DNA from: Prostheceraeus crozeri
Taxonomy: Eukaryota > Platyhelminthes > Polycladida > Euryleptidae
Reading direction: 5' to 3'
Length of the DNA: 64,000 nt
Assembly: GCA_907163375.1 (NCBI GenBank)
Contig: CAJQUW010004437.1
Location: 62,001 to 126,000 of the forward strand
In this document: positions 5,294 through 49,359 of the stretch, in pieces
Numbering within the stretch: the stretch's first letter is position 1
Layout: every line of letters starts with the position of its first letter
Program-made: the position numbers and the translations under genes
Notes under the pieces: model-generated
Told to the model about the DNA's origin: nothing
The model's database searches: none
Seen by the model: only the letters and a program-made list of their open reading frames with translations

Positions 5294-5663
5294 CTATTGT
5301 GATGTGCTACTTAGCCTCATGTCGGGAACATCTAACTGAGTATAATAACATTGTGGACATTACAAAAAAAATTGGAACATTGATGGAAGGAATATCCGTT
5401 CATTAACCCATTTAAGGCCGCTATATAAATATCGGCAAATTTTCTATAAAAACGGTAGTAAGTATTTCAGAATGTTATAATTAAGAATAATATATGATGA
5501 CCACTTCACTACAATAACCGTATCTTAGAAATTAAAGCCGTAACGATTTCGTTACGATGACGTCATATGATGTCAAAATATACAAAAGCATGCTTTTTTT
5601 CAGATGCAGCTTATGAATTGCTCCAAGCAATTCCTGCCGAAGTAATGAGTCATAGCTTCAGCA

Positions 5664-6038
5664 CACGGTTCACCGGAAGTTGAATCTAAACATAAAAAAT
5701 ACGACCCCAAAACGAAGTTCATTTTTGAACTACACTATACCCATAGATACTCATGTGATATGTCGTTCAAATCCTGAATGAGCTTCTTGCGAGAAAATCA
5801 TAGATATCGGATTGTGTCCAAATCCTCAATTTTTTACTACTAACGTTTTGGACTAATTTCTTCAAACTTAATGCTATTGTAAATCTGACCTTATTAGATA
5901 TCGGGAATAATATTCCACTAGAATTGACAACTTGCATGAAGCTTTGTTTGCTATTTTACATAGATATCTGGCCTGCTTCTAATGTTTTAATACCATATGA
6001 ATCCTTAAAAACTTGTATAATTTTAGATATCGAAAAGT
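5664..6038 (+). repeat. Left long terminal inverted repeat of copy 1
   Basis: It is almost identical to the reverse complement of 8325-8744 except for a roughly 50-bp block unique to the right arm. The first 39 bp read as a heptamer-like CACGGTT (5664-5670), a 23-bp spacer (5671-5693) and an A-rich nonamer-like aaaaaatac (5694-5702). Confidence 0.92.
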
Positions 6039-6105
6039 CTTTTGTGATTAAATTAAATTCTATGTATTACAACATCTTATAAACGAGGTTTGATGTGCAT
6101 GAAGT

Positions 6106-8139
6106 TTACAAATGGCGAGAGTTGTATCGAATTACGCAGTGAAGAAGATGCGTTCCATAATTTTCATTATTCTGACTTACTTTTCCTCCTGATTTCCACA
6201 TAGTGTCAAAATCCGAGTGAACAGCTTCTGATGCCTGCTCACTAAAACGTGATAGTCCGCATTTTTTAAGCTTACAAAATTGAATTAAATGCACCATTAC
6301 AATATGAGCTGCAGTTGTCACAGTCATCCCCGTTTGGAGATATAAGTTTTCAAAGGTTTTAACAGAGTTTTCAAAGACAGGACAAAGTTGTTTTCCGAAA
6401 GAATGGTCGACAACGTTGTCAAATGCGACTAATGTTGATCCAAATAGATTTATTAACGGTGCTTGATTCGATCTATTACCAATTTCAGTTAGAACATGAG
6501 CACTTTTCAATAACTTTCGGCACATATTTCCGGTAAATTCCCCACCGTGATGTTTGGGCTGAACTATTCCAAGCTTGTTTAGCCATTCCTCAGCAATATT
6601 GGGAACGGCCGTTTGTAATTCCTTGAATATTTTGTTTACTATACGAAGAAGTAAATGAAGTTCTGGTGGGGGAATCAGTTGTATAAGCATTTCACTATCA
6701 CTACCTTGGATCATCGGATGATTTACACAACTCCTGAACTCTTTAGCAGATGCCTTCTCGTTGTAAATACGTCGTACATTCATGTAGTCATCAGCATATT
6801 TCTTTATCTCACCGATAGTCCTCATTGGATGAGATCTGAATTTTTCCTTGTCGGAGAATTCCATCTTCGGACAGTTGCAATATACACAGGGAAAACTGCT
6901 TGAGTGTGATTGCAGTCCACATAAAATGTTCGCCATTTTCAGGTCGACTGCACAAACATATTCAAAGTCAATCTCATCGATCTTCAACAGGTTAAGGATT
7001 AGCCGTACATTAAAATATGTTTCTTTCACATCGTAACTTATAGCAACAATGAGAAGCCTCTTCACACTTGTGTCGAGCATTGTCCTATTGATCAGTTTCT
7101 TTGAATCGTTATTGGTATCAGAATTGGACATTATATTCAAGCAAAACTTAAGACAGCCACCGCCACTATCAATTCCCATTTTAAAGGTGACGGATGCTTT
7201 TTCATAGTTGCGCTTTTCACAAACGAAATTAACAAAATCTGTGATATTTGTACAGTATACAAGATCTTTGGAAACGGTTGAGGTTCCATCCTCGTTGGCA
7301 GTACACTCGAATTCACATGTTGTACAACTGAAGAAGTCCAGACAGTTATTATCTCTGTCACGAAGTTTCGATCCAATATCCGATTCAACTGATGCTTTTC
7401 CGAGAACACTTCTGACAAATGGAACAAATTTTCGACGAATTTCGTTGTTAGATGACGAGGTAGCATTTTGAAATTTCATAATATCATCGATGTTGAATTG
7501 AGATGAATCTTTCGTATTATTTGAGAGGACTTTCACTTTTAATGGATGTGAACCACCGGAGTAGAGACTGCTTATATTGTCAATCGAGGATTTCCTGATA
7601 ATCGATGATGCGACAGCCTGCTGTGTATTGTCATCACTTGAGTTTATCATTCTCAACATATTATCACGTAGATTTCTTTGCGTACACTTATGATTGATAC
7701 CTTTTCCGTATTCTGATTTACAGAAGCTGCATAGCACAATCGGCATACTGGTAGGTCTTTCAATGCTTCTTGGGCGACCCTTACTCCGATGAGTTATACA
7801 GCCTGATTTCTGGGATACATTGCATATTTCACAGTCACATAATGGGACAGGATTAGATCTCGTCGTGGTAGTGATGGGCGAAATGTGTATATAATCATAA
7901 AGTTCAGGTAGAATTTCGATCTTCTTCTTGCCGGCACTTATATCAATCAAATTGGATCTGCACTTGCTGCATATGCCACATGGAAATCGATTGTCAGATG
8001 GATCATAGTCTTTTCGAAAATATCGTTGTATTCGCTCAAGAACAATGGCAGTCAGATTGTATTTAGCTTTGCCAAAGCAAATAGCGCAAACTTTACACCG
8101 ATTTTCCTCATGTGTTAACGCACGCTTCATGTGTGCCAT
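6106..8139 (-). CDS. RAG1-like DDE transposase (intact ORF)
   Basis: A 677-residue protein. The start is placed at the Met of MAHMK rather than 14 codons upstream, because copy 2 aligns from the same point. The N-terminus is zinc-rich: CKVCAIC (residues 15-21), FPCGICSKC (53-60), CDCEIC (101-106), then the AT-hook-like SKGRPRS (about 119-125) and CSFC...HKC (137-152). This order resembles the RAG1 N-terminal region. The core has GIDSGGG (D324), AVDLKM (D399) followed after exactly 18 residues by CVYC (418, 421), then HIVMVH (612, 617) and SEQASEAVH (E634/E638). RAG1 has D708-X18-C727-X2-C730, H937-X4-H942 and E962. It also shares a GEFTGNMCRKLL block with a RAG1 core segment. By inference it is a cut-and-paste transposase with a RNase H fold acting on the flanking inverted repeats. 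No RAG2 partner is seen. A Chapaev-type transposase is the main alternative name. Confidence 0.88.
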   Translation of the reverse strand: MAHMKRALTHEENRCKVCAICFGKAKYNLTAIVLERIQRYFRKDYDPSDNRFPCGICSKCRSNLIDISAGKKKIEILPELYDYIHISPITTTTRSNPVPLCDCEICNVSQKSGCITHRSKGRPRSIERPTSMPIVLCSFCKSEYGKGINHKCTQRNLRDNMLRMINSSDDNTQQAVASSIIRKSSIDNISSLYSGGSHPLKVKVLSNNTKDSSQFNIDDIMKFQNATSSSNNEIRRKFVPFVRSVLGKASVESDIGSKLRDRDNNCLDFFSCTTCEFECTANEDGTSTVSKDLVYCTNITDFVNFVCEKRNYEKASVTFKMGIDSGGGCLKFCLNIMSNSDTNNDSKKLINRTMLDTSVKRLLIVAISYDVKETYFNVRLILNLLKIDEIDFEYVCAVDLKMANILCGLQSHSSSFPCVYCNCPKMEFSDKEKFRSHPMRTIGEIKKYADDYMNVRRIYNEKASAKEFRSCVNHPMIQGSDSEMLIQLIPPPELHLLLRIVNKIFKELQTAVPNIAEEWLNKLGIVQPKHHGGEFTGNMCRKLLKSAHVLTEIGNRSNQAPLINLFGSTLVAFDNVVDHSFGKQLCPVFENSVKTFENLYLQTGMTVTTAAHIVMVHLIQFCKLKKCGLSRFSEQASEAVHSDFDTMWKSGGKVSQNNENYGTHLLHCVIRYNSRHL

Positions 8140-8324
8140 CGTGAAGTAAATGAAGAACGTTGACTTGCTTTGTACGTACATTTGAACTAAATTTAGATTT
8201 CAAATTCAATTATGTCGCAACCTGTGTCTCAAATTACGACTATGTTATTGTCATTATTATAAAACAGTGAAACAGGCTAAATATCTATGTAGCAAACAAT
8301 GATATCTAGATAGCATATACTTTT

Positions 8325-8744
8325 CGATATCTAAAAAATTAAACTAGTTTTTAAGAATTCATATGGTATTAAAACATTAGAATCTATCACTATCAAATAT
8401 TGTGTTATTATCATTATTAATAAACCTTGAAGCAGGCCAGATATCTATGTAAAATAGCAAACAAAGCTTCATGCAAGTTGTCAATTCTAGTGGAATATTA
8501 TTCCCGATATCTAATAAGGTCAGATTTACAATAGCATTAAGTTTGAAGAAATTAGTCCAAAACGTTAGTAGTAAAAAATTGAGGATTTGGACACAATCCG
8601 ATATCTATGATTTTCTCGCAAGAAGCTCATTCAGGATTTGAACGACATATCACATGAGTATCTATGGGTATAGTGTAGTTCAAAAATGAACTTCGTTTTG
8701 GGGTCGTATTTTTTATGTTTAGATTCAACTTCCGGTCAACCGTG
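8325..8744 (-). repeat. Right long terminal inverted repeat of copy 1
   Basis: Partner of 5664-6038. The outermost 39 bp have the same heptamer / 23 bp / A-tract layout with one substitution in the first 20 bp. Block 8386-8432 has no counterpart in the left arm. A diverged second copy of the neighbouring segment lies at about 8240-8340, so the inner part of the arm has undergone a local duplication. Confidence 0.9.
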
Positions 8745-8748
8745 AGCA

Positions 8749-10372
8749 TGAAAGCTCTCCATCATATTTCAGAGGCATTTGTCGAAACTGTGAATAAGCA
8801 AATTTAATCAAAGGCCTGCTTTATGCTACTTGTCGTTGCTGTTTGCTGTGAAGTCGCTATCGTTGAAATGAGAACAAGTTTTTATATTTCGAAATTCATG
8901 CCGAGAAATTGATTCTCTTTCTGCATCGACTCCAAATTCATGGTAGAGTTGGAGACGCCTCGGTCATTAGCAATGTCCACATAAATAAAGAACATCAAGA
9001 AATGAACGCATTTGAGATTGTTTAGTATTATGTAGGCCTAAACAAATCTTTTGTCCCTGGTAGTCACTGGTTTCTGCCACTGAGGTCGATAAGACCATCA
9101 GCATGCGTATCAAGCATCTCATAAAGATTCTTGCCTTAAAATGCATCCAGAGAATGTTTGTCCTATCCGCGAAGATGGAAATTACCGATATTTGCCATTA
9201 TGTTGACTGCTTTTTCTGTTCACTGAAATGATCATTCAAATCATCTTTCGTTGCAATCTCACACTGCCTTACGATGTCACTAACCTCTGAGATATCGTTT
9301 GAGAGACTTACCTCTGAGACACATAAACTCATCATCGTTTCAAAACTCTGATGAAACATTTACTTATGGAGGTTTTGTGGCAGCATTCATATACCGTGAT
9401 CGCCGGCATGTGGCCTATTGCATATTTCAGTAACTTCTTTGTCCATACTTAGCAACAGCTTGGGTATTGTCCTCAGATAGCTACACAGGTTGATATAATC
9501 AAGCTAAGCCTTTATAGATATTTCAAACCAGTTTGGGCCATCTCGAGCCTCTAGCGTACCCTTGTAGGGAGAGACGCATCGTATACAGCCAAAGAAGTTT
9601 TGGATTGAAATTGCTCGAGTCGGAGGACATCTTTGTATTCTATGCCCAGGCGAACTGGCACCCTGCAATGTTTATGATTAAGCTATAAGAGAAAATGCTT
9701 GAGATTTGATCTCTCTTTGACTTGCTTATGTAGTCTGTACATGAGCTAACAAGTCTAATATTGAGGAAATTTCTACGGCAATTGACTTCGGTTGGTTTTG
9801 TGACAGGAAGCCATAGACTATAAATAGCAACAAGCACTACAGCCTCATAGAAAACACTAAGAATGCAATATTCCAATCAAATTGTTAATTTCCACCATTC
9901 AACAAACATTAGTTTTAAAGAAAATTGATAGTATTCACCACCATTTACTTCATTTATATTGTTGCTGTATTTAACATTTATATATCATATTACGCCAGTG
10001 TAACTAAAACGTTACGGTTCAAAAAAATTACGTGCCATGTCATGAATGAATATCCGAGCAAGTATTGATCGCTATTTTTGGTATTTGATGGATAATGAGA
10101 TCACGCAAATGACATTGACAGTAAATTACCTGTGGACGTTCATACACTGAGCCTTTCAGTATATTAGCAGATTTTAAGCCCATTTTTTGTCTAATTTCGT
10201 GATAAAGTATAAGCACTAAAAGTGATAAATTTTGAATTGGCGATTGTTTACCTGAAAATATGTGATAAATAATGTATGGTAGTCAAAACATTGTATCATG
10301 TGTCGCAAGCTGGAGAAGACAGCAGATTCCGAAAAGTGCTGTAACGAAAACGTTACACTGGCGCTAAATGGG
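8749..10372. other. Right part of the piggyBac-like element, no intact gene
   Basis: Apart from a possible transposase relic at 9640-9876, no coding signal is recognised. Around 10000-10020 and 10341-10358 lie copies of the aacgttac motif that also marks the left end of the element. Confidence 0.5.
9640..9876 (-). pseudogene. Possible piggyBac transposase relic
   Basis: A 78-residue minus-strand reading contains YCILSVFYEAVVLVAIYS followed by a PTEVNCRRNFLNIRL stretch. This loosely follows the hydrophobic segment and the FRRE-type motif near the C-terminus of piggyBac transposases. The catalytic aspartates lie upstream in that family and are not seen. Its position inside a TTAA-flanked element fits, but the match is weak and could be chance. 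Confidence 0.3.
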
Positions 10373-11775: not shown

Positions 11776-13299
11776 TCTGCTTTGCTACTGCTCTTGTCAC
11801 TTCCTATTCTAAAATTTCTCTTCCGTTAGTATTCAGGCATAGAATCGAGGTCAATTAGGGTAGGTTCGTTTGAGGAAACTTATTAAGTAGCTGCAGAGAA
11901 AGCACTATAATTTATGAGCCTACGGGATATAGCCTTGAGTACTTCTGTTTCTTGACTTTTATTGTCACGTGTTCAGTGATATATTGAGAGTCCGTTTTGT
12001 GATTATTGGTTACCGGCCGGTTATATTGGTTGTACTTGATAAGTACGGATATTTTGGGCTCGGCCTCAGTTGGGTACTGAGTGGTTTGAGTTGGAAATTG
12101 ATTATTGGCGCGCAGGTTTTCCCCGTGTGAGGGACGTTGAGGGCAGTGAGGAAAGCTACCGGTAGTATTGAATTTGTTGATATTGTTCTGCCCGTGTTGT
12201 ATTTCAGGACGTGTTGAGTCCTCGTTTTAGTATTAGGTTGAAATCTCCCCGATCCTCATATAAGTGGGTGCGTAAGTGGTTCAACCCCTACAACAGTACT
12301 TTCATATATTTTTCCTCAGACACATAGGCATTGTAGGTGTTCAGTAAGTACTGTGTAAGCATATTTAATATCGGAAGTCCTTGTATTTTCTTAAGTATAC
12401 GTTTACCACTTGTCTAGCACGCAAATTACCGTCGATCGTTTTCGACATACTATACTCTTACTAATTTCGTCTATTCGTTTCTATCCGAATACTCGATCAG
12501 TCGGTCGTATCCGATCTTTGCTCCAGACTAATAGAACTATTATTCTTTTATTATTTTGTATTTGCGATTCGTGCGAGGTCGAGTTTAACAGTAACTTTGT
12601 CGCACTTTGTTAAAATTCCTTCAGTTGGTGACGTCTACCTTTGTGATACTTATTGGGTTTCGGGGCAATATATATGCGTACATATTGGTGTATACTCGTA
12701 TAATTGTGGTATCATTGTTATTGTTGCTCTCATTTCTATATTGCATTTCTGGTATATATTTTGCATTGATTTTGTACCCATCAGTCCCCATCTCCCCATC
12801 GCAATTGCAATTACGTTATTAGTTTCCCACAGCATTGCCCTAACCTAGTTAGCCATTAAAAATCTTGATAATATTTGGAAACGTTACACAATTTACGTCT
12901 TCTTTTAGTGTCGTATTTGCTTTCTCTTGCTTAAGTATTCAATTTTCGTTCTCATAAAGCGTACAATGGCATTTCTAGTCGATTACATTTTTCAATATCT
13001 GTTATATTGTGGTAAAAGTTTTTGTAACTAATTTAATAACTACTTTCGATAGTTCTACTGCTTCAACCAGTACACGTAAAGATATACGTACAACTACTGC
13101 CGGGTAGTTTTACTGATTTCCCTCCATCCTCCATACATCACTGTTCGTGCGGTTATAGCAATTATAGCAGAAAAGACCGTTGCCCCCTATCTCGTCCTAC
13201 CACCTCCATCCACTGGCAGTTCAACATCTCTGATTAGTTTCAATTCTTCCTTATTTCTTTCACATAATACACAGCTCATACACCTATTTGTTATTCAAA
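11776..13299. other. 5' leader of the LTR retrotransposon
   Basis: About 1.5 kb between primer binding site and gag. No conserved ORF is recognised; the short overlapping ORFs at 12597-12848 look like chance. It presumably holds packaging and splice signals, which I cannot identify. Confidence 0.5.
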
Positions 13300-14964
13300 A
13301 TGGCCAAACGCACCCGCTCCAGTAAGGAAGTTATGGATGTTGACGTTGATCACACTATACTCCCCAACACCTCTTTGGTTGCGGGAAACTCAGGGGGTGC
13401 CCTAACGCCTACTTCTGCGACCCGGCCCTCCGCATTACGAAGAACTTCTATCTCTGCCGATTTAACCAACGGTCCACGTTGCTTACCCCCAAATGCCAAC
13501 ACAGCTTTAGCAATCACACCTTTCTCGGGTGACTGTGCACATACAGAAGCTAATTTTATAGAGTTTATTGATCACTTCGAATTGGTTGGAAGAGCTTTGG
13601 GTTGGACAGATTTGCAAAAAGCGCACCTTCTCCCAACTTACCTTAAGTCTTACGCAATGGAAATGTATCGACAAGTTCCTCCCGAAGCGCAAAACAATTA
13701 CCCATTGCTGATTCGCACAATGAAAACTTTATTGAAAACGCCAGAATCCGAAAAGTTCGCGAGTGTAGAATTACACACACGCAAACAGAACGTAGGGGAA
13801 TCCGTGGCCGCTTTCGCCACTGATATCCAACGCCTAGTGCGAACTGCATATGTTAATCTTGACCAGAAAGCCAAAGACATGTTACCTCGAGAAGCTTTCG
13901 TTTTTGGCCTGCTACCACAGTTACGACGAGCAGTACTTCAAAAGGATCCTGATACATTAGACGAGGCTATCTCATATGCCCGCAAACTGCAGGCCCAAGG
14001 CCACTTGTTGGCCGATGACGATAATTCTCGTACGGTCGCTGCAGTACAAGCCGTACAAGACCGCATGGACTCACTGGTTTCTGCTATACAAGGCATGAAC
14101 ATGTATCCCAACGCCACCTATCCTGCCGCTGAACCGTCCAGGCAATGGAAAGCTGTGCCTCTGCCACGATACACAGCAGACAACAGGGTAATATGCTACA
14201 AATGTGGAAAACCAGGTCATATTCAAAGACAATGCGGACGGCGAGTGACGTTCGCCCAACTATCACCACGCAGATATGCAAATGGGTATGATGTAAGTCA
14301 TAATCACCAGCCTTCAATAATAAGTAGTAACGAAAGACCACATCACAGGACAGACATGTACCGGGCGGCCACCAACTCAATGTCGCCATCATTTGACCAT
14401 CAAAGACCTCCTGCTAGGAACTTCCGGGTATCCTCACATCAACATCCTCCGAACCCACCAAATGGCGCTCAACCACGCCACCTATCTCCGCCACCAGACC
14501 TACAAAGATCATCTTACAGCCCATCGAGGCGTTCTTCTGGAGAATCCATTTTGGGCATTTCTATGAATCTCGGCAGGCATGCAACATCGGAAAACCATAG
14601 CAATGCAATTTTCTCCGACGATATGGAAGATCGAGTACAAACGAGAGACCCTTCCTACCTGGTCGCAGTCATAGCAATCACGTCTCAGCACCCTGACCCG
14701 ATGTTCTCTATTGCCAACCAACAGGATCAGGAAAGGCAAGACTCCACTATAAAAATGGTGGATCTCATGCAACCTACCGAACAGACATCAAGTGATGCCC
14801 TTCCAGCAACGTCTGCACCTCCACTCGCTGAGTTGATAAGAGACATCCAACAGTCACAATCAGCCCAACAAACATTGAGTGATGCCCTTCCAGCAGCGTC
14901 TGCCCCCCCCCCTCACAGACGTCGATGTCACTGTGGACGCAGTACCGCAACCTCAAAACGCTGA
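13300..14964 (+). CDS. gag: Gag polyprotein
   Basis: The ORF opens at 13288, but the Met at 13300 (MAKRTRSS, context aaaATGg) is the better start, giving about 554 residues. The middle (about 13520-13990) has the retrotransposon Gag fold pattern: FIEFIDHFELVGRALGW, LPTYLKSYAMEMY, VAAFATDIQRLV and AFVFGLLPQLRRAV. A single zinc knuckle CYKCGKPGHIQRQC (CX2CX4HX4C, about 14195-14236) follows, then a long Pro/Ser/Gln-rich tail. Gag forms the particle and packages RNA through the knuckle. The frame ends just after a run of ten C (14903-14912), where the +1 frame carries on into the next gene. This could be a programmed slip site or a length error. Confidence 0.92.
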   Translation: MAKRTRSSKEVMDVDVDHTILPNTSLVAGNSGGALTPTSATRPSALRRTSISADLTNGPRCLPPNANTALAITPFSGDCAHTEANFIEFIDHFELVGRALGWTDLQKAHLLPTYLKSYAMEMYRQVPPEAQNNYPLLIRTMKTLLKTPESEKFASVELHTRKQNVGESVAAFATDIQRLVRTAYVNLDQKAKDMLPREAFVFGLLPQLRRAVLQKDPDTLDEAISYARKLQAQGHLLADDDNSRTVAAVQAVQDRMDSLVSAIQGMNMYPNATYPAAEPSRQWKAVPLPRYTADNRVICYKCGKPGHIQRQCGRRVTFAQLSPRRYANGYDVSHNHQPSIISSNERPHHRTDMYRAATNSMSPSFDHQRPPARNFRVSSHQHPPNPPNGAQPRHLSPPPDLQRSSYSPSRRSSGESILGISMNLGRHATSENHSNAIFSDDMEDRVQTRDPSYLVAVIAITSQHPDPMFSIANQQDQERQDSTIKMVDLMQPTEQTSSDALPATSAPPLAELIRDIQQSQSAQQTLSDALPAASAPPPHRRRCHCGRSTATSKR

Positions 14965-17107
14965 AACTCAAACCGATTGTCACAACAGTTCCGCCTATCT
15001 TCATTGGCCTTTGGTCAACAACATTCTCATTCCTATGAGGTCCGTTTCATCCGGCCGTCCATTCAAGGGAGTAACCACTGGTATTTTCCTATTAATGCTA
15101 ACCCTGCTTTGGCTGGGCAGACCAAGCCGGAGCGAGTGGAAACCCAAATCATCCCAACCCTATGATCTGTCAAAAGAAAACAGGGGCCTCGACATGGGAA
15201 GTACCTGATCCACCTCCTTGTGAGTCCGGTATCAAAAGGAATACGGCCCCCATCAACCGAACGCATGAACTATACAAAGTCAATATGCTACAATATGAAA
15301 GTGCAGGCTTCCATTGCATTAAAATAAAGCATATATTCAAAACCCTAATCTACTTTTTTGGAGAGACTTCTAAAGAAGAACATCGTACATATCCCGGTAT
15401 CGAATCTAGAATGTCAGCAAATAATAAAGGAACAACAGTGCTCAGTCGGAAAATTGAAAAGTATCCAGGGAGGATGGTCAACGGACATACCTGCTGTCCA
15501 CGTCCTTGGAGCAGCGCCTTTTGAATGCTGTAAATGGAGAACTCAAGTAATCATCAATTGTCTTGTCGTCCCAATATCAGTGTACAAACGCCACTCGTCA
15601 AAATCAATGGAAAGTTCTGCTGGCATGGTCAAGCATTGTCACAATCAGGCTGGCCACTGCCACCTTAATGATTTTTCTCACATTATTTGGAAACCTTCTA
15701 AGGAAGAAAAGTGCAAATTTCTCAAATGGAAGATTTTCGCCGGTGAACAATGGGGCGACACATGGGTGTCCAGCGATGGCAACCTTGCGCTCACGTTTCG
15801 TAAAGTAAAGTCATCTTACAGGGACTGTAATAACACAACTCTCCTTCGGACTCAACAAGGGATATATGTGAAGGAATGTCATTGGAACCAACAGAAAGTT
15901 CGGGGCAAGAGAGGAGTTACTACATCGGAAGTTGCCTTACAATTCAAACTTACTAATTATGTCCGCTTGGCATTTAACATGGCAATTCAAGCGTCGTGCA
16001 AGAGCATGATGTCGCTGGTCGGCCTTTTCAAGGTTGCAGTTATGTCTCATCCGACTTTGGCAGTTCGGTCATTGTTTCAACGCCATTACCTTCACGCGAA
16101 AGCTGTGGGCAGAATACTTGAAATATTTCCTTGTACAGAGGTCAATAACTTCACGATCCTCTCAATGAAGACACGTTGCCTGAGGCGAATCCTAATCCTT
16201 CATGTTCTGATTCAAAATCAACCTATTTTAGGTTACTTGGATCCAATAACAAATATCGTACATACTACCGCAGCTAGGCGCCCATGTCATGAAATGACCA
16301 ACGTTCCCTTCTGTTACAAGCAAACATGTTGCAATTACCATTACAAGCACGGATGTCACCCTCTACCTCCGGCGCAGAAACTACCAATTTATCCATCCAA
16401 TTTCACCACGGTTCCCTTACCTCCTCACACTATTTTTCATGACCTCGTGGTCTACAATTGGAGCGCTACACAATCTCGAGAAACGATCAGCGACCTTATG
16501 GGAACTCTCACCATGCATAAGGAAATACTACAGCGGCTTGGGATTACACCCAATGAATCTGTTTCCGACAACACTCAGTCCTTGATCAATAACATCGCTC
16601 ATAAAGTGTCCTTTGTTTTTCTTCTTGGCTTCGCGGCTACTGCGAAACAGATATGGATATTCCTTGTGTGTTTATATGTTACTATTTCGGTCTTCATTCG
16701 GATTTGTACACACTGTGGACGTCAAGTCACAAGACCAACATGGATATCCACTCTGCCATCCCTACCATGGTACCGCTCCAACAGAGGACCGAAACATCAC
16801 GATAACCAGGCTACGGAAGTGCCAGCTATTGAAGAATGCGTCGCTATGATAGCCCTCCCATCAGACAGCTCCTCATGTGAAAAGAATAGCTATGAACTTC
16901 CCCAGACAACAGACATGAACCCGCCGTCATACTCTACTGAACTTGAACCAACCGCACCAATGTACCAAAGTCCCCTGCCGGACAGACTCACGCCCGCCAC
17001 ATCTAGCGCACAATCACACAGCGACACCGATCTCGAAACAGGAAACTATCTGCCACAGTCGCCGACATGGCCAAGATCAAATAGCACAGAGGACATCGTT
17101 GCCGCGT
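14879..17107 (+). pseudogene. Envelope-like membrane glycoprotein, frame-broken
   Basis: A membrane-protein gene lies between gag and protease. In the +1 frame after the C10 run a hydrophobic segment (GIFLLMLTLLWLG, about 15080-15120) looks like a signal peptide. Two more frame changes follow (about 15165-15205 and 15355-15370) before a long open part from 15358. That part is cysteine-rich, with possible N-glycosylation sites (NNTT, NFTT, NWSA, NESV). A strong transmembrane stretch lies at about 16595-16710 (SFVFLLGFAATAKQIWIFL and following), then a Pro/Ser-rich tail. This layout is that of a class of viral fusion glycoproteins; I cannot assign the family. The tail continues in frame into the protease. 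The breaks make the copy non-functional as read. Confidence 0.6.
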
Positions 17108-17410
17108 GTGGGCAACAGGAAAAGTCTGTGATACGCATACGCATTGACAACAAGTCTGCCGAAGCACCTTTGGACACGGGGGCGGGAATAACCTTCATTT
17201 CGGAGGATTTTACACGATAATGGAATATCGAATCCAGAGCCACGTCAATGTCCGCTAAGAATGTTAGCGGGGGAGATTTGAAACTTGTTGGTTCTGCAAC
17301 AGTGGTCTTCAGTTTGGCGAAACGTGAAATCCCCATGATGTGGCCATCATGAGAGGTTTATAGTTTGATGCTATTCTCGGAGTGGATTTTCTCACCAAAC
17401 TTGATTATTT
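17108..17410 (+). pseudogene. pro: Retroviral-type aspartic protease, broken
   Basis: The catalytic motif LDTGAGITFIS (about 17168-17200) is intact and lies at the C-terminal end of the 15358-17220 ORF. A TAA at 17218 interrupts the domain. Downstream the flap and C-terminal parts can still be followed (LKLVGSATVVFS, then in another frame DAILGVDFLTKLDY at about 17367-17408, the usual ILG-DFL end of Gypsy proteases). It would cleave the polyprotein. Its fusion to the tail of the envelope-like region rather than to gag is unusual. Confidence 0.85.
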
Positions 17411-18780
17411 CACCATCAATTATAAAAGTAAAAAAATTGAATTCCCACCTCCAACCAACCTCACAGTATGCTCCGTCAAGCTCGATGAAAGCGCTACTAT
17501 ACCACCACGAGCAGAAATGAAAGTCGCGACACGTCTTACTCACCCACTTCCTGCAGAAACAGTCTTGTTTCAACCCAAGAACAGCAACCGACTGTCACAA
17601 GTGCTAATCGCCAACATGGTGGCTTCACCACGGGAACAGCATATTCCAATCTGTATTACTAACATGTCACAGGCACCCGCCAAGTTTCATCGTGGACAAC
17701 TCCTCGGGAAGGCAGAAGCCTTAACTACACAAGACCTCATCATCGATGAAAACCAAATGCAATCGAATTCTGTTACTTGCAAAGAGGAATTCGTGAGTCT
17801 ATTTTCGAAATCCACAACCTTGACCGTTGAACAACAAGCACAACTAAATGATCTCCTTTGGCAACACAAAGAAGTTTTTGCTCAACACGAATTTGACCTT
17901 GGCAAAATGGAAGGCGTTGAACATAACATCCACATTGGAAACAACCCTCCTGTTCGCCAACGACCTTATCGTATCCCTGAATCTCAAAAGTCAACGATCA
18001 AAGAACATATTAGCAAAATTTGCCACCACGGTATCATCCAGCCTACAGCAAGCCCTTTTGCTTCACCAGTTATTCTCGTAAAAAAGAAGGATGGTACTGA
18101 CAGATTTTGTGTCGACTTTCGACGATTGAATGCTAACACCAGTAAAGATTATTTCCCTCTACCAAGAATCGATCAAACGGCCAATTGTTTATCACGCGCG
18201 TTTATCAATACTTCTCAACTCTGGATTTGGCATCAGGGTACTGGCAAATACCCATTGCTCCCGAGTCCCGACCAAAAACCGCGTTCACTACGTTCGTCGG
18301 AAATTTCGAATTCTGCCGACTTCCATTTCGACTATGTAACTCGCCAGCCACAATCCAGCGCGCAATGGAAGTCATTCTGGCTGGTCTACAAAATGAGACT
18401 TGCATTGTCTATATCGACGACATTATCTGCTATTCTCCTGATTTTCTCACTCACTTGCGGCACTTGGAACAAATCTTGTCAAGGATGCTAAAACATGGTG
18501 TTAAGTTAGAACCCAAAATGTGTAATTTTGCGAAGTCCACAGTCAAGTTCCTTGGTCACGTCATCACACGTGAGGATATGAAGCCTGACCCGGATAACAC
18601 GAAAAAGATACACGGGTATCCTACACCAAAATCTACGAAAGAAGTTCGCCAATTTTTGGGTCTTGATTCTTACTGCCGGCGCTTCATCCCCAATTTTGCA
18701 AAAGTAGCAAGTTCTCTCCATCAGTTAATAAAAAAGGACACCCCCTATGTATGGGAAGCCGACCAGCAGACATCCTTCGC
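17411..18780 (+). pseudogene. pol: Gypsy reverse transcriptase, frameshifted
   Basis: RT motifs appear in order: PFASPVILVKKKDGTDRF and VDFRRLNANT (17382-18491 ORF), then in a second frame FSTLDLASGYWQI, TAFTTFVGNFEFCRLPF and the active site IVYIDDIICYS (about 18405-18435), then FLGHVITREDMKPDP and VRQFLGLDSYCRRFIP (18185-18913 ORF). One frameshift lies near 18190-18215. YIDD replaces the commoner YVDD or YMDD, which is tolerated in Gypsy elements. The enzyme copies the element RNA in cytoplasmic particles. Confidence 0.93.
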
Positions 18781-19450
18781 TAAATTGAAAGCGCGCTTGT
18801 GTCAAGAGCCCATACTCGCCTATCCCGATTTTACCAAGACGTTTACCTTACATGCCGACGCAAGTGGTATATACAGCTCTAGGGGCTGCACTCAGCCAAG
18901 GTTCGGGGCGTGAAGAACGAGCAATTGCATGCGCCAGCAGGACATTGAACAAGCACGAACGGAATTACGCGATTGTAGAATTGGAGGCCCTGGCTATTGT
19001 CTGGGCTTGCGATCACTTTCGCCCATACTTGTACGGTAGGCCGTTTACAGTGATAACAGATCACAGCCCTCTTCAGTGGTTATTTACACACCAAAATCCG
19101 TCATCTCGCCTCATTCGATGGGCGCTAAAGTTACAAGAACTTGACATGGTGATCAAGTACCGACCGGGGAAGTGCAATAACGCCGACTCTTTATCGCGAA
19201 TCACCGACATGACTGTTGTATCTGCAGTCACTCGCAACGACAGCATGGAACTTCGTATAACATCTGACATTGCAAATGTACGCACAGCCCAACAAACCGA
19301 TCCACCTCTTCAATGTATAATCCGGAAATTGCTGGGAAGGTCGGTCAACTTTCGAAACGTCTCTAAGTTGGATCAGTCATATGTCCTTACGAAGATCGGT
19401 AACTTCCGCTTACGACATGGAACACTGTACCGTCTGACCGAGAAAGGCAC
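18781..19450 (+). pseudogene. pol: RNase H domain and linker, frameshifted
   Basis: LHADASGIY (first catalytic D) is in the 18185-18913 frame. After a frameshift at about 18870-18900, ALGAALSQ, IVELEALAIVWACDHFRPYL (with the catalytic E) and FTVITDHSPLQWL (D) follow, then the typical RWALKLQELDMVIKYRPG and NADSLSR boundary of Gypsy elements. The domain is complete apart from that single frame change. Confidence 0.92.
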
Positions 19451-20810
19451 TCTTACGTTGGTTCTACCTACCTTTTATCGAATGCAAATCTTTCTCGAAT
19501 TTCACCATGGACAATTTGGAGGACATTTATCGGCGGAAAAGACATTATCACGCTTGCGTAAGTTTTATTATTGGCCAAAAATGAACAAACAAGTCCGTCA
19601 ATAGATAAAGGAGTGTGTCTCATGCAACGCCCGGAATGCACCCAATCGTAAAGTCAAGGTTCCATTGAAATCTATCCCAATCCCGCCTCCATTCTATCGA
19701 TGGGCCGTCGATGTCACGGGATCGTATCCCTAGACCCACGTTGGTAACAAATATATCGTTATCTTTGTGGAATACGCCACTAAGTGGGTGGAAGCTTTTC
19801 ATATCCCCGACCAAACTGCTCAGACAATAGCAAAGCTTTTTACGAACGAAATTGTGTGTCGGTTTGGGTGCCCCGAGACATTACTCTCGGATAGAGGCGC
19901 TAACTTCATGTCCACACTAATGAAAGAGGTCTGTCGGATTACCAATACCAACAAGGTGTTTACTACGGCGTACAACCCCAAGTGTGATGGTCTTGTGGAA
20001 AAAATGTGCGGTGTCATCGTTCGGATGATTTCACATTATGTCAGTTCCGACCAGAAAGATTAGGATGATTTCATACCTGCCATGCTCTTGCATATCGTTC
20101 TTCGGCTCATGCGTCTACAAAAGAAAGTCCTTTCTTCCTTGTATTCGGAAGAGACCCTCAACTACCGTGCGACTTGGTACTCCATGAACAAAGGGTGACG
20201 ATACCCAGACTACTGTGACTGACTATAAAAACCTGTTATCTCGCCGATTATCAACTGCTTGGGAGTTGGCACGTAAGAACAATGATGAGGCTCAGAAACG
20301 CCAGAAAGCGCAGTACGACAAGTCGTCGACGGATTTCTTAGACCATGTTCCGGTTGAGATCGTGTGTATGTTTTTACGCCTCAACCAAAAAAAGGCCTGT
20401 CTAAGAAGTTACAAAAACTATGGCGCGGCCCTTACCGCATTCTGGAGGTTACCGACACAAATGCCCTTGTCGCCCCTATCAATGAGCCTCGCGGTAAAAG
20501 ACAATGGACAAATTTAAATCGTTGCAAACTGGCAACTGAGCCACACACTTCTCAACTGCCAGACTCAGATGCACAACTACTCGATCAGTTCTTTGAGCCC
20601 ATCCCATCTGCCGACGCAAGTGACCATCTTCGAAATAGTCCACCATCCCCGACTGTTTATCGGTCGGAAGCGGGAATGCTATCCACTGCGGCTAGAAAGC
20701 CTGAACGCACCAAGCCCACTTGCCCGGACGCTACCGGAAGAAACACACCTGGTGTATTCCCACCTTGTAAATACCCTTTACGCAATCGACAGCGACACTC
20801 TTCATCCTAA
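19451..20810 (+). pseudogene. pol: Integrase with GPY/F C-terminal module, broken
   Basis: The zinc-binding HHCC domain is visible (EFHHGQFGGHLSAEKTL, YYWPKM, then CVSCNARN) but is cut by a TAG at 19603. The core has WAVDVTGSYP (D), LLSDRGANFMS (D) and DGLVEKMCGV (E), so the DDE residues remain, with further stops near 19731 and 20062. The C-terminal module has KLQKLWRGPYRILEV (about 20425-20470), followed by a basic tail. Integrase inserts the element cDNA; the flanking 4-bp CTAT duplication is its product. Confidence 0.9.
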
Positions 20811-22509: not shown

Positions 22510-23215
22510 TGTATAAAGTATCGTGTGACGTCACCAACTGGTTTTAGCCTACATGTACTTGTCTTTATAGTATTTCGTTTTCTCGACTACGCACATCGCA
22601 TTTACGTTTTAGTAAGCATATGCCTCAACCACAGTTCACTGTGCTCGCGTTTCTGTATTCCTTTCAGACACAAGTCGACGTGGACGTCGCTTTTCGAAGA
22701 GGATGGATATTGTGATGTGCTACTTGGCCTCATGTCGGGAACATCTAACTGAGTGTAATAACATTGTGGACATTACAAAAATAATTGGAACATTGGTGGA
22801 AGGAATATCCGTAAATTAAAGTTGCAAGAGTACAAGAGGAAAGGTCATCGGTCATCTAAATGTTCTCCAACTTAGTGTGTACCATTAAGTGATGTAATCA
22901 TGAACAAGTCAAATTACCACTATCACACACTATTTGTGGGACGTGAGAGAGATGATATCAGAATGGCGACAGTACCACCCAAAAAAGTGACCATGGTCAT
23001 GGCAGTGGAAATAAGCAAAGACAGTTCAAACATTTTTCTCTCCAGAGATGGCGACTTACACTTGTGTGGTCAGGGAGAACCAATATTGGGATGTTGACAG
23101 AATTGCTTACAAAGTACTGACGTGTTAATGGAAATAGTGATAATCACCAATTAGCTATCTTATAGACCCGACTAAAAAAGCTTTTAAGATGGCGTCTTAC
23201 ACTTGTGTGGTCAGG

Positions 23216-24064
23216 CAGGAAGCATGATCAAGTGACAAAAAATTTGACGACTTAGGATGAAGCAGCTTTTGGTACTTTTTGATACCCTGATTTCAAAAAT
23301 CATAGTGGTGCAAATCATCTATTGGCTCCTTTCGAGATATAGGGCCATGAATATTCTGACAACCAATCAGAATCGAGGATTTCTATAATTCATGTAAAGT
23401 CTATTTAAAAAGCTTTTAAATGCAGTTTTAAGCTATAAATGTGATTATTTATACATTTTTAGACATTCTAGAATATTGTAGTGCATCCATTACGGATATA
23501 TCAGATGATATAGGAATTCTGACGGCCAATCAGAATCGAGTATTCTATGAATTTGAAATGTGCTAGGCCTACTCAAAACCCTACGAAGTTTAGACTTTAT
23601 TTATGTTATTTATTGAGGAATTACATAAATAGTGATGTTTTTTGATTTGCAACGATTATATACAGACAGTAAACATGATTGTAAACGAATAACAGTCTAA
23701 GAACTAATCAGAATTGAGTATTCGTATAATGCAGGAATATGCTTTTCTTAGAAATGTTGAAACATCAGCTACAATTCCGGCGCTGTGGCCTTGTGGTAGA
23801 GTGTTCGCTCTGTGTCCGGGAGACCTTGGTTCAAATCTTGGTCGGGTCAAACCTGAGACTTTTAAAATAGGTACACTCTGCATTCTTGCTAAACACTCAC
23901 TCAGCACGAAAGAGAATGAGAGTGGTAAATGACAACTCGGCCACATGGAAGAAAGGCTCCGTGCCTAATGTGCTTCCGAGTATAAACAACGTTCATTTTT
24001 TTCTATTCATTTGTAGGCCTATATGTATTTCTGTGGAATTTGTGCTGATTACTGCTGGATGTAG
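23216..24064 (+). repeat. Left ~850-bp terminal inverted repeat of copy 2
   Basis: It mirrors 26898-27756 with very few differences, including a tRNA-like SINE at 23779-23848. It lacks the outermost 9 bp seen on the right. Confidence 0.92.
23779..23848 (+). repeat. tRNA-derived SINE head (left arm)
   Basis: The sequence has pol III promoter boxes: an A-box-like tgtggccttgtggtagagtg and a B-box-like ggttcaaatc, followed by ttggtcgggtc. It reads as a tRNA-like module with a non-tRNA tail continuing to about 23990. The acceptor stem does not close and no CCA context is seen, so it is a SINE rather than a tRNA gene. The same unit lies inverted in the other arm (about 27116-27185). Confidence 0.7.
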
Positions 24065-24257
24065 GGCTTTGTCTTCGGAAATCTTTCAACTAGTGATAGT
24101 TATTTTAATTGTCAGTCATATTTATAACAATATACCGGTACCATTTAAAAACTAATTCCTTCAGCTTGTAACCGCATACAGTAGGGAAAAGTCCTTTTGT
24201 TAAACTATTTTTATTTGCATGAAACAACAACTTGAAATAAATGTGGTTCAATTTAAA

Positions 24258-26305
24258 TCAGATATGACGTCCATTGTATCGGACCGTGGTGTCAAATAGG
24301 TTTCTGTCAAAAGATGGGTGCACTCTTGAAACCTTCCCGCATTGAGTCCACAACGCGCCAAAGTCGGTATGCACGGCTTCTGAGGCTTGCTCTCCGTATT
24401 TTCCATAGGACGATTTCGTGAGGTTGCAAAACTGTCTGATGTGAACCATCACAATGTGGACAGCCGTGGTCACATTGATTCCAAGCCTGAAATACGAATC
24501 TGTGAATTTGTTTATGAATACCGCAAAATCTGGATGCAGTGACCGTCCGAAGCAACTTTCAACCACTAAATTGAAGTGAGAGAAAGCTTCAACGTATGGA
24601 AGTAACCAAGAGTCAGTCGGGTAAATGATATCTCTGAGGAAATCAGTCTTTTTCAATAAACAACGACACATATTTCCATTAAATTCACCTGAGTGCAATT
24701 TCGGTCTCGTCAGCCCCACTCTTCTGCTCCACTCTGTGGCAACTGCTTCTTTTTCTTCCTTTTTTCCTTTTTTTTCTTTTTCTTTTTCTGTCCTCGTTTC
24801 CAGTTCTGTGTACATCTTATTCGTCACACGGAGCAGAAGATGAAGCTCCGGTTGAGGCAACAAAGAAATGATCATCTCATGGCCATCCCCACTGATCAAC
24901 AAAGGATTCGTGCAATTGTTGAAGTCCTTGGCACAAGATTTATGCTTGGAATTTTTGAATTTTCGTGAATCCTAACAGACCCCAGCGTGCGTATAACGGA
25001 AGATCTGCACTTGCAAACATCATTGAAGTTGTCCTTGGAAGCTTGGCAATATACGCAGGGATGAGTGCTTCCATGGGTCTGGATTCCGGTCACTATGTTG
25101 ATCATTTTGAGATCCATGGCCATGGTGAATTTGCTTTGTAGGTTCTCTATTTCCAACAAATCGAAAACTGACTTCACATTCTGATAGCTCTCCTTGAAGT
25201 CGGGAACTATGGCTAGCACAAAGAGATGCTTAACACTCGAATCAGTGAATCTAGTTGATGAACCAGAAGCATTGTCATCAGTAATCATGGACATACACAC
25301 CTTGAAGAATCCAGCTCCACCGTCAGCTCCTATTTTCATAAGGACGTCGTTGCAATCTAATTCACGGATCTGAAAGATATAATCAACAAAGCGAATGACA
25401 TCATTGCAATAAACTACAGGAAGTTTTAAGTCATCGTCCACAATAACTTGTCCCAATGATAAGAAATTGGAAAGACTTTTTTCGCGATTGATGAAGTATC
25501 GCTCGCAATTTCCATCAATAGAATTCCTCCCAGCTGACTTCCGAATGAAAGGACAAATAATCGTCTTCATTTCAACATTAGATGCACCCAAGGATATCTG
25601 TAACTCATTCAAGGTCTCAGAATGAAAATTAGGCTCTTGTCTAGCTTTGCTATCACTCATTGAGATTTTCAATGAATTTGGACTCTTTGTAGCGAACGAA
25701 ATTTGCTCAGGTTGGCCACTCTCCCTCAACATTCCCCGAATCAACTCTTCAGCTATCAAATCCTGGCTTCTCTGATCCTCGGTACTGACGATCGCCGTCA
25801 AGTTGCTCCGCAGAGTCGAAATGTTACGAGAATGCGAGAGTCCGCGATGTATAGTGGAATAACAGGATGTACATATTTTTGCCCTGGACGAACGGGGCAT
25901 AAAAGACTTCTGATCTATTGATGGAGGACGACCTACTTTTCGTTTTGGAGCAACAGTACCTTTACATCTTGCGACGTCACACATCTGACAAGGACAGACA
26001 GGAAAGGGATCTTGGCTTGTAGCCGTAAGACGGATGGAAGAAACGAGACTGCTGAAATCATGGACTTCCGGAAGAGTATTGACATCTTTCTTGTCTTGGC
26101 TTATTTCTAACAAATCATTTCGACATTTTGAACAAATTCCATTCGGTAGTATGCAGTCATCCGCATTGTAATTTTCTATGAAGAATCTCTTAATTCTATC
26201 TACGATGACATTGGTTACATCATATTTGGCTTTCTCAAAGCAAACGATGCAAACCCGGCGGCGGTTCTCTTCATGAGTTCCTGGTCTCCTACCATTAGCA
26301 CTCAT
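24258..26305 (-). pseudogene. RAG1-like DDE transposase, one frameshift
   Basis: It reads from MSANGRRPG (26305) to RYNGRHI (24258) in two frames. The zinc ladder matches copy 1: RVCIVC, ILPNGICSKC, CPCQMC, the GRP-type KVGRPPS, then CTSC. The catalytic layout also matches: GADGGAG, AMDLKM with 18 residues before CVYC, HIVMVH, then GEQASEAVH. Overall similarity to copy 1 is moderate, so this is a different family. A break near 24950-24975, where copy 1 has about six more residues, shifts the frame between RTLGSVR and CAKDFNNC. A charged Glu/Lys repeat (EKEKEKKGKKEEKE) replaces a short loop after the ELHLLL block. All recognisable key residues survive, so inactivation looks recent. Confidence 0.87.
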
Positions 26306-26897
26306 TTCGTAGAAATAAAGAAGACCCAAAAATGTAAACGAACAATGTAACCGCAAGAATTAGAACAGAGCTGCCTTAATTACGCACTCGATAATAAACA
26401 GACTGGCGCCAACTAGCTGTCAATAATCAATTAGCAGCTGCAAACCACGAACGTGCGCGCATCCAAAAATCAATGCAGTCTTCGCTTTAATTGCTTTACG
26501 TCAAACACATCAAGACAGTACGTGCGCATTTGTAATGCTTGTGTTCAATGCATAGTCAGCTCATGATGGCTGACTACCTATCCACACGCTACCACTACAC
26601 AACTGAAAACTTCCCAACCTCTTTCGTATAATGGTTAAGCATTAATAATAACGTGTGATGATGATTTTATTATAAATAGTATTAAGAAGAATTTCTAAAG
26701 CTTAGTTTTCGTATGAATAATCACACGTGATTTTTTTAGATGACATGTCTTAATTTAATAGGTTTTCGACTAGTAGACAATAATTTATTATTATAGGCCT
26801 ACTGATTAGCACGAATGTTTCACAAAAATGCAAATGAATTGTAACCCTATTGTTCTTCGAGGATAAATAAAGAATTACATACATACATACACACACA

Positions 26898-27756
26898 CTA
26901 CATCCAGCAGTGATCAGCACAAATTCCACAGAAATACATATAGGCCTACAAATGAATAGAAAAAAAATGAACGTTGTTTATACTCGGAAGCACATTAGGC
27001 ACGGAGCCTTTCTTCCATGTGGCCGAGTTGTCATTTACCACTCTCATTCTCTTTCGTGCTGAGTGAGTGTTTAGCAAGAATGCAGAGTGTACCTATTTTA
27101 AAAGTCTCAGGTTTGACCCGACCAAGATTTGAACCAAGGTCTCCCGGACACAGAGAGAACACTCTACCACAAGGCCACAGCGCCGGAATTGTAGCTGATG
27201 TTTCAACATTTCTAAGAAAAGCATATTCCTGCATTATACGAATACTCAATTCTGATTAGTTCTTAGACTGTTATTCGTTTACAATCATGTTTACTGTCTG
27301 TATATAATCATTGCAAATCAAAAAACATCACTATTTATGTAATTCCTCAATAAATAACATAAATAAAGTCTAAACTTCGTAGGGTTTTGAGTAGGCCTAG
27401 CACATTTCAAATTCATAGAATACTCGATTCTGATTGGCCGTCAGAATTCCTATATCATCTGATATATCCGTAATGGATGCACTACAATATTCTAGAATGT
27501 CTAAAAATGTATAAATAATCACATTTATAGCTTAAAACTGCATTTAAAAGCTTTTTAAATAGACTTTACATGAATTATAGAAATCCTCGATTCTGATTGG
27601 TTGTCAGAATATTCATGGCCCTATATCTCGAAAGGAGCCAATAGATGATTTGCACCACTATGATTTTTGAAATCAGGGTATCAAAAAGTACCAAAAGCTG
27701 CTTCATCCTAAGTCGTCAAATTTTTTGTCACTTGATCATGCTTCCTGCCACCCGCG
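26898..27756 (-). repeat. Right ~859-bp terminal inverted repeat of copy 2
   Basis: Mirror of the left arm. Its outer end has a heptamer-like CGCGGGT, a 23-bp spacer and aaaaaattt (reverse complement of about 27718-27756). A short (catacata/caca)n microsatellite at 26878-26897 adjoins its inner edge. Confidence 0.92.
27116..27185 (-). repeat. tRNA-derived SINE head (right arm)
   Basis: Mirror copy of the SINE head at 23779-23848, carried inside the right inverted repeat of RAG1-like copy 2. The minus- or plus-strand ORFs here (PRFEPRSPGHR) are shadows of the tRNA-like sequence. Confidence 0.7.
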
Positions 27757-47568: not shown

Positions 47569-49359
47569 TCACAAGGGAGGCTTACTTTGACAGCCAGAAC
47601 ACCTGAATTGTGTGTCTCTGCGAATTGTCTGCTTTTGAAATTGCTTGCATCTCAACCTTGCTTTCTTACGTTGACCGTCATCACCAACAGGAATTTTTTC
47701 TGGGAAGTGCATCATTGTGATCTCCGCGTTTGGTCCGCTACTGATTCTGCGTCTCTTGGTAGGATCTGAAGCATGACCTGTGAAATGCACAATTGCTGCC
47801 TCTGTGAATTTCAATAGCGATGGTCTGTGGACGTTCTGTTCATGGATATAGCGCAAGAAACCATTGAGTAACAGTCGTTGAAGAAAATGTATTCCCATCT
47901 TCTTGAACCAGATTTGGGATTTGTTGACAGCACTGTATGGAGCGAGCTATTGGTCCGTTAGATCGACTCCACCCATTTTCAAGTTATAAGCTTCAATGGC
48001 AGTGGACCGGCTGTAGTTGACCGCCTCTTCTTGACCCCTTAATCGCCTCGTCTTTTGAAGAACATCAGCATCATCCGCAGTAGATAAAAGGTAGACATCC
48101 TTGCGGTCACAGAATTTGATGGCCAACAGATGATCGTCTTTGACCATGAATGATATTCCCACGTTTGGCAGTTTTTTCTCCTGAGGCACTTTTGGAATAC
48201 CACGGTGCTTGTTCACAGTTCCTCGCATGAATGTCTTTCGGGAATATAGGCATTCCGCCAGGCGAATACTGCTGTACCAGTTGTCTAGTGTGATCGTATG
48301 CCATTGGTCAAGGAGCCCTGCCTCTTTGAGCAGGTGCACAACCACCAGTTCACTTTTCGATAACGAGTCTGTATCCGGCTCATTGAAATCAAGAGTTGTT
48401 CGTGCTCCCTAATATACTTCATAGGCTGGCATGTAGCCAAGACAATCACAAAGAATATAAATCTTTATGTCGAATCTACCTCGTTTGCTGCGGATGAACA
48501 TTTTAAAACAAAGTCTTCCTTTGTGAAGTAACAAGCACTCGTCCAGAGATAATTCCATACCGGGTTTGAAATTGCGACAGATTTGATGAATTTTTTCTTC
48601 CAGTTGGAAAAGATGGCTGTTTCGGTTGTTTGATTCAACCAGATTAGGATCCGAAAATTGAAGGAAGCGGTAAATGGCCCGAAACTGGTTTCTTGACATT
48701 ACTGTGGCGTAGTAGGGCGTGTTCATAATTGGTTCCGTTGACCAATATTCGTCGATAGTGGATTTCTTGGTTAGGGGCATGGCTGACAGAAGTCCGAAGA
48801 ATTTCTTCATTGTTGCGACATCTACCACTTTCCAATCATCTACATCTGCCATATTGGCTCGCTGATTAGTCCTATTACATAGTAGTTGAAACAGTCCATC
48901 AGGAAGGAAAGCACTAATACACCCAGTCACTTCAGTTGATTGCGGCACAGTCCAGCCGGTCACGCCTTCGAAAGAATGATCAGGGTGAGCATATTCATCA
49001 ACTTGGACGAATCTCCAGTTGTCATTTGCATTCTCTCTGCTCTCTTCATCAGTTTCTTCACTTTCGCTGCTGATGCTGCTGGAGTCACTTTCAAACTGTT
49101 CCGTAGGGTCTGCATCGTAGTCATCGTGCTCGGGTTCATCGTCTGAACTATCATCGGTGAACCCAAAGCGGCGAGGAGGAACAACGACTCTCTTAGGACG
49201 AGCAGTTGAAGATGTTGCCATATCAAAACCGATGTCTTTCCAATCGAACGGAAGCGATCTGACTGAATGATTCATCATGCACACTTGACTAACAATCCCT
49301 CTGTGATGACCATAGCTTCCAACGCTATTGATTAGTTTATCCCAATAGAAAACGGACAA
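47569..49359 (-). pseudogene. piggyBac transposase, broken in three pieces
   Basis: Three minus-strand segments make up one transposase. 49359-48409: an acidic N-terminus (DDSSDDEPEHDDYDADP), then the DDE domain with YRFLQFSDP and MELSLDECLLLHKGR (first D). 48345-47947: ITLDNWYSSIRLAECLYSR (second D), MRGTVNKHRGIPK and YNLKMGGVDLTDQ (third D). 47898-47569: C-terminal part with a cysteine-rich RLRCKQF and TQFRCSGC. All three catalytic aspartates remain, but stops and frame changes at about 48410-48350 and 47946 inactivate it. The protein would cut at TTAA and transpose without leaving a footprint. Confidence 0.93.

Follow-up and report, generated by a model that had tools for sequence, protein, structure and literature searches.

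Background

Chapaev transposons (Kapitonov and Jurka 2007, via PMC4079192 and PMC4411706) are recognized by 5'-CAC...GTG-3' termini, a target-site duplication (TSD) of 3 to 4 bp and a DDE core with the motifs C(2)C, LH and H(4)H (PMC4079192). Chapaev3 elements (Garfield, Merrow, Conan) share the motifs and the CAC ends, and all those examined have 3-bp TWA duplications between A and T (PMC4079192). PMC4411706 treats Chapaev as a clade next to Transib and RAG1 that has the core and an N-terminal domain in common with them, and a study of RNase H-like proteins reports that the Pfam family DUF1280 represents the transposases of Chapaev and groups in one clade with RAG1 (PMC3985635). The TSD of Transib is 5 bp (PMC8355894). 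In 2014, the biology of Chapaev was called largely uncharacterised (PMC4079192).

Here, we analyse an element found in the window, i.e., the whole 64,000-nucleotide stretch of Prostheceraeus crozeri DNA under study, for which the original prediction had claimed an intact transposon encoding a RAG1-like recombinase. On the published hallmarks, it is most probably an autonomous cut-and-paste transposon of Chapaev proper (not Chapaev3) within the CMC/CMCT clade. It adds a good new example to a known animal group and is not a new RAG1-like system; the new details are conserved blocks within the outermost ~ 145 bp of its repeats and a wealth of relatives, one of them inside the window. The family is undescribed in the literature searched, a search that lay outside Repbase and most subscription journals.

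Structure of the element

The boundaries proposed for a 3081-bp element proved exact (Table 1): its first letters at 5664 are CACGGTTCACCGGAAG..., and its last letters at 8744 are ...CGGTCAACCGTG. The inverted repeats, expected to measure ~ 380–420 bp, align with a left arm of 375 nt and a right arm of 426 nt. In the outer stretch, the arms are identical at 312 of 313 positions; after a 49-nt gap on the left side, 62 more nucleotides of the left arm can be paired with 3 mismatches and a 2-nt gap. When the arms of 13 copies were compared, this gap was common to copies L001–L003, which form the subgroup of the window element, and the arms of L015 and L017 were 426 nt each and identical throughout (426/426).

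The predicted 677-residue open reading frame (ORF) is likewise present, read from the second in-frame methionine. According to the ORF listing, the element has no second ORF longer than 109 aa and thus none of RAG2 size, the other ORFs of at least 60 aa being 62–109 aa long and overlapping the transposase when read without regard to introns. The N-terminal region is cysteine-rich, with cysteine pairs conserved in the family alignment, and may correspond to the Chapa domain of Chapaev. In the core, D338, D413 and E652 are the putative catalytic residues; E648, an alternative glutamate within the same SEQASE motif, is conserved in 16/17 rows.

Table 1 Features of the element (window positions; residue numbers refer to the 691-aa form, and conservation is taken from the 18-row family alignment)
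Feature	Position	Strand	Remarks
Transposon, family A	5664–8744		3,081 bp; CACGGTTCACCGG...CCGGTCAACCGTG; CACGG...CCGTG tips
TSD AGCA (left)	5660–5663	.	single AGCA in 6/6 aligned empty loci
TSD AGCA (right)	8745–8748	.	read from the window sequence
Left terminal inverted repeat	5664–6038	+	375 nt; without 49 nt found in the right arm
Right terminal inverted repeat	8319–8744	-	426 nt
Conserved subterminal block TATGTC..AAATCCT..TGAGCT..TCATAGATATCG	5759–5809	+	putative transposase-binding site; conserved in families A–D
Mirror copy of the conserved subterminal block	8599–8649	-	from comparison of the arms and of families A–D
Transposase ORF	6106–8139	-	677 aa from the second in-frame Met, near the start of most relatives
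Transposase ORF, long form	6106–8181	-	691 aa from the first ATG
D338, putative first catalytic Asp, motif GIDSGGG	7168–7170	-	D in 17/17 rows with a letter; assigned by eye
D413, putative second catalytic Asp	6943–6945	-	17/17 rows; aligned to mouse RAG1 D708
C432-x-x-C435, C(2)C motif	6877–6888	-	C432 in 17/17, C435 in 16/17 rows; aligned to RAG1 C727/C730
L508-H509, LH motif of Chapaev	6655–6660	-	17/17 rows; motif named in PMC4079192
H626-X4-H631, H(4)H motif	6289–6306	-	17/17 rows; aligned to RAG1 H937/H942
E652, putative catalytic Glu	6226–6228	-	16/16 rows; on RAG1 E962 in the hhalign alignment

Insertion site and recent mobility

The perfect AGCA duplication of the original prediction was found on both sides of the element, and its origin can be read from empty sites. 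When the window flanks were joined with one AGCA, all 40 scored matches (from 715 first candidates) spanned the junction at 96–98% identity, and each of the six empty loci aligned had a single AGCA at that point. These junction-spanning empty sites show that the element landed in a dispersed repeat and that four bases were duplicated in the process. The target itself (5514–5663 and 8749–8898) has at least 40 copies with 96–98% identity.

The element is complete and recently mobile. Copies L004 and L005 are the same letter for letter over 3,130 bp while their flanks differ, with the TSDs CATT and ACCA, respectively; such identity at separate sites means that transposition was recent. Copies L001 and L002 are 99.94% identical (0.06% differences), and identities of 99.84–99.94% occur among full-length copies that lie at different sites and have different TSDs. 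The opposite reading, that of a fossil copy intact by chance and without recent mobility, could draw on the many genome matches that are stop-bearing or truncated; it is scarcely tenable in view of these full-length copies, identical or nearly so although their sites and TSDs differ, and of the uninterrupted frames of families A and B. The earlier suggestion that the element is perhaps still active is supported, and it may be active today. Substitution ratios are only indicative: two subgroups of family A gave dN/dS values of 0.62 and 0.65 (on 30–31 changes), the values within family B were 0.31 and 0.35 (on 13–14 changes), and the comparison of family A with family B was saturated.

Copies and families in the genome

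Searches of the window's own genome (2.05 Gb) with the transposase gave at least 77 protein matches (64 of 6,515 first candidates scored), a number that takes in fragments, copies counted in several pieces, and members of other families. Among the matches listed, nine family-A frames cover all 691 residues without a stop, and many others are truncated or contain stop codons. A protein 98.7% identical to that of the window (681/690 residues) was found in a 2,361-bp ENA contig, which could be a transcript.

Is the 4-bp duplication a property of the whole group or of the window copy? An exact 4-bp TSD was present in 25 of the 26 copies of families A–D with both ends recognizable (12/13 among loci L001–L020 and 13/13 among L021–L038); the exception, L019, has no TSD, and a 5-bp TSD was seen in 0/26. 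Among these 26 copies, the proposed check of TSD length yielded no contrary case except L019. Copies with an end missing or altered are outside this count, namely, L006, L011, L012, L014, L016, L018 and L020 in the first set and L022, L027, L031, L032 and L034 in the second; in L014 and L020, the right end is recognizable but altered, and there is no exact TSD. The 4-bp duplications have no evident consensus.

The window's family, A, accounts for 18 of the 26 copies. Family B (6/26) has ~ 62% protein identity and the ends CACACTTCACCGGAAG, and families C and D are represented by one copy each, with protein identities of 52% and 48–50%, respectively. The better copies of family E have the ends CACGGGTGGCAGGAAG, and a 4-bp TSD was read by eye in five of its six loci with both ends, two of which share flanks. 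The more distant family F is a single copy (L059) with an uninterrupted frame, the ends CA[C/G]GGTGA[C/T]ACGGAAG, the right one reading CAGGG, and CACA on both sides (1/1, read by eye). Uninterrupted transposase frames occur in families A, B and F, and one more was found in a further copy, L060.

The inverted repeats of families A–D, compared with one copy per family, are only 48–57% identical overall; the tip CAC..TTCA.CG.AAG is shared by all four, as are short blocks around positions 32–44, 58–64, 96–101 and 106–143 of the repeats. These blocks, which lie within the outer ~ 145 bp, are candidate transposase-binding sites, the plain alternative being that they were kept through shared ancestry of the repeats. 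The sequence GATATC at element position 140 is present in families A, B and D, and the idea that such sites are universal was rejected, since the outer repeats of the tested family C and F copies lack them.

A search with the first ORF of a second, family-E element of the window gave at least 97 matches in the same genome, 11 of which, at 35–43% identity, are stop-free with an open frame of at least 671 aa; within a single genome, this group of transposases has thus radiated richly. Three such loci were read (L059–L061), and L061 seems to be without a normal C-terminus. A search by ends, in which 40 of 201 candidates were scored, did not establish any miniature elements; 32 of these 40 rows represented 16 end pairs a few kb apart.

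Relation to RAG1 and Transib

The core spacing said to equal that of RAG1, or to differ from it by one residue, is present as described: the window protein has D413-X18-C432-X2-C435 and H626-X4-H631-X20-E652, and mouse RAG1 has D708-X18-C727-X2-C730 and H937-X4-H942-X19-E962, with a difference of one residue between H942 and E962 and their counterparts (X20 versus X19). The RAG1 residue numbers given with the claim (D708, C727, C730, H937, H942 and E962) are right when checked on a 1,040-aa PDB chain.

Profile comparisons were made with 18 distinct family proteins, several of them partial: the window protein, P0002–P0012, L021, L029 (two pieces), L030, L059, L060 and L061. The Pfam RAG1 family (PF12940) matched 0/18 of them when asked up to E 10, a range in which HMMER filters drop most matches above about 0.1; in the window's own genome, the same family found nothing, and no control gave a signal either.

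An hhalign comparison between the family profile and a set of 18 vertebrate RAG1 proteins nevertheless brought the core motifs into register: D413 on D708, C432/C435 on C727/C730, LH on LH (H795), GNMCRKL on GNFARKL, H626/H631 on H937/H942 and E652 on E962. The same register from D413 to E652 was obtained in repeated runs; the alignment stops short of the first aspartate, and D338 was not placed on RAG1 D600. None of the column shuffles reached the score (0/100, 0/200 and 0/150), although the margins were narrow in the first and last runs (26.8 versus a best shuffle of 26.1; 28.8 versus 27.8), and the core score was also above a reversed control. The core runs were weak (probability 2–6%, E 0.0066–0.022), whole-length profiles or a single RAG1 gave a probability of 0.3–0.4% with E 0.16–0.2, and the global mode returned a one-column alignment. 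The transposase appears to be a distant cousin of the RAG1 recombinase. The profile check proposed at the outset came out divided, with no Pfam match on the one hand and motifs in register above all shuffles, albeit at weak E-values, on the other. The name "RAG1-like recombinase" was too strong given 0/18 Pfam matches and hhalign E-values of 0.0066–0.2 at probabilities of 0.3–6%; what stands is the kinship at the level of the clade. The RAG1-like spacing is common to the whole CMCT clade, and therefore the motif marks the clade and not RAG1 alone.

At its N-terminus, the family resembles, by eye, N-RAG-TP of Aplysia (Panchin and Moroz 2008) in the order of the cysteine pairs. As cited in PMC8355894 and PMC2996935, N-RAG-TP is a mollusc transposon with a protein said to be like the RAG1 N-terminus. 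The N-terminal similarity of our family to RAG1 was not distinct from shuffles, which reached its score in 13/200 and 9/150 cases.

Probable assignment to the Chapaev group

All three hallmarks given above for Chapaev were found. The 5'-CAC...GTG-3' termini are present in the window element and in families A–E, the TSD is 4 bp in 25/26 copies and at the empty site, and the motifs C(2)C, LH and H(4)H are all present and nearly invariant in the 18-row alignment. The 3-bp TWA duplication of Chapaev3 is absent from the copies with both ends among L001–L038, where 4 bp without evident consensus was read instead, and Chapaev3 therefore does not fit. The earlier proposal of a cut-and-paste relative of the Transib/RAG1/Chapaev clade is thus borne out, with Chapaev, one of the options named, fitting best; the remark that a 4-bp TSD differs from the 5 bp of Transib also holds, but the length is no oddity, since 4 bp is within the Chapaev hallmark as described in PMC4079192.

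DUF1280 gave sub-threshold matches in 4 of the 18 proteins (E 0.0031, 0.0044, 0.046 and 0.062), each spanning the first-Asp motif and scoring 13.3–17.6 bits against a curated cut-off of 25. The window protein matched no Pfam family, DUF1280 included; a DUF1280 search of its own genome found nothing at E <= 0.001, where no control responded either. No homologue with an informative name was found, and viral contigs gave no match. The PDB sequence search returned nothing for the window protein alone and two unrelated matches (E 0.86 and 0.95) with the profile.

Two other placements have to be weighed against Chapaev. The family might form a CMCT lineage of its own, so far undescribed, next to Chapaev, EnSpm, Mirage and Transib. 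This would agree with the lack of informatively named homologues, with the fact that none of the 18 proteins reaches the cut-off of any Pfam family and with a clade that, according to PMC12730594, already holds additional lineages such as Plavaka, ESTA and Lanisha; we consider it unlikely, because the TSD length, the ends and all three diagnostic motifs are as published for Chapaev, and the weak DUF1280 matches point the same way. Even less probable is a place inside the RAG1/Transib lineage in the narrow sense (Transib, TransibSU or ProtoRAG-like), combined with a shift to a 4-bp TSD. The CAC ends, the order and spacing of D, CxxC, LH, H-X4-H and E, with D-X18-C-X2-C identical to RAG1, and the profile register from D413 to E652 (score 28.8, reached by 0/150 shuffles, best 27.8) speak for it, although the profile similarity to vertebrate RAG1 is weak. 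Against it, the TSD is 4 bp and not the 5 bp of Transib, TransibSU/ProtoRAG and RAG1 in every family read, Pfam RAG1 was matched by none of the 18 proteins, the hhalign probability is only 0.3–6%, the RAG1 search of the genome was empty (as were its controls), and the element has no second ORF above 109 aa, hence none of RAG2 size. PMC4411706 counts Chapaev itself among the clades of a Transib superfamily taken broadly, and in that wide sense this placement is compatible with the preferred assignment to Chapaev.

Proposed mechanism and significance

Directly seen are the intact ORF and the repeats, the 4-bp TSD of numerous copies from several families, a precise empty site and the recent spread. 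In the mechanism that we propose, the 677-aa DDE transposase, consisting of the N-terminal cysteine-rich region and the catalytic core with C(2)C, LH and H(4)H, would recognise the long inverted repeats, excise the element by cutting both ends, probably through double-strand excision, and join it to the target with a 4-bp stagger that would give rise to the 4-bp duplication.

Tentatively, the genome may be viewed as carrying a large, possibly still mobile Chapaev-type radiation of at least six families (A–F), with a RAG1-related core, no RAG2 partner and subterminal binding blocks shared by families A–D, a picture that we hold to be possible though open to considerable doubt. If it is true, the radiation could be used as a side branch that is alive and accessible to testing, beside the Transib/RAG1 recombinases; its richness, its youth and its use for comparison with RAG1 are the points of interest. 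Moreover, the identical uninterrupted copies at separate sites make the element a good candidate for testing RAG1-style cutting through a hairpin intermediate.

Other mobile elements in the window

The second relative in the window is an older element of family E (23214–27749), with an inverted repeat whose arms match at 848 of 852 columns. Its transposase is split into two ORFs (24896–26356 and 24258–24902, minus strand), for which Pfam gave nothing at E <= 0.1, and its outer ends are damaged in comparison with other copies; it is decayed, yet its arms are 99.5% identical. By eye, the repeat contains a tRNA-SINE-like stretch.

Pieces of a Gypsy-like retrotransposon lie at 13288–20810 (plus strand), including a zinc-knuckle Gag-like ORF, reverse transcriptase, RNase H and an integrase zinc finger. 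A piggyBac-like transposase fragment (Pfam DDE_Tnp_1_7) was identified at 48409–49359 and a Tc1/mariner-like transposase piece (HTH_Tnp_Tc3_2) at 56636–57454, both on the minus strand, and an ORF with a DUF7869 match at 44427–45182 (plus strand) perhaps belongs to another mobile element.
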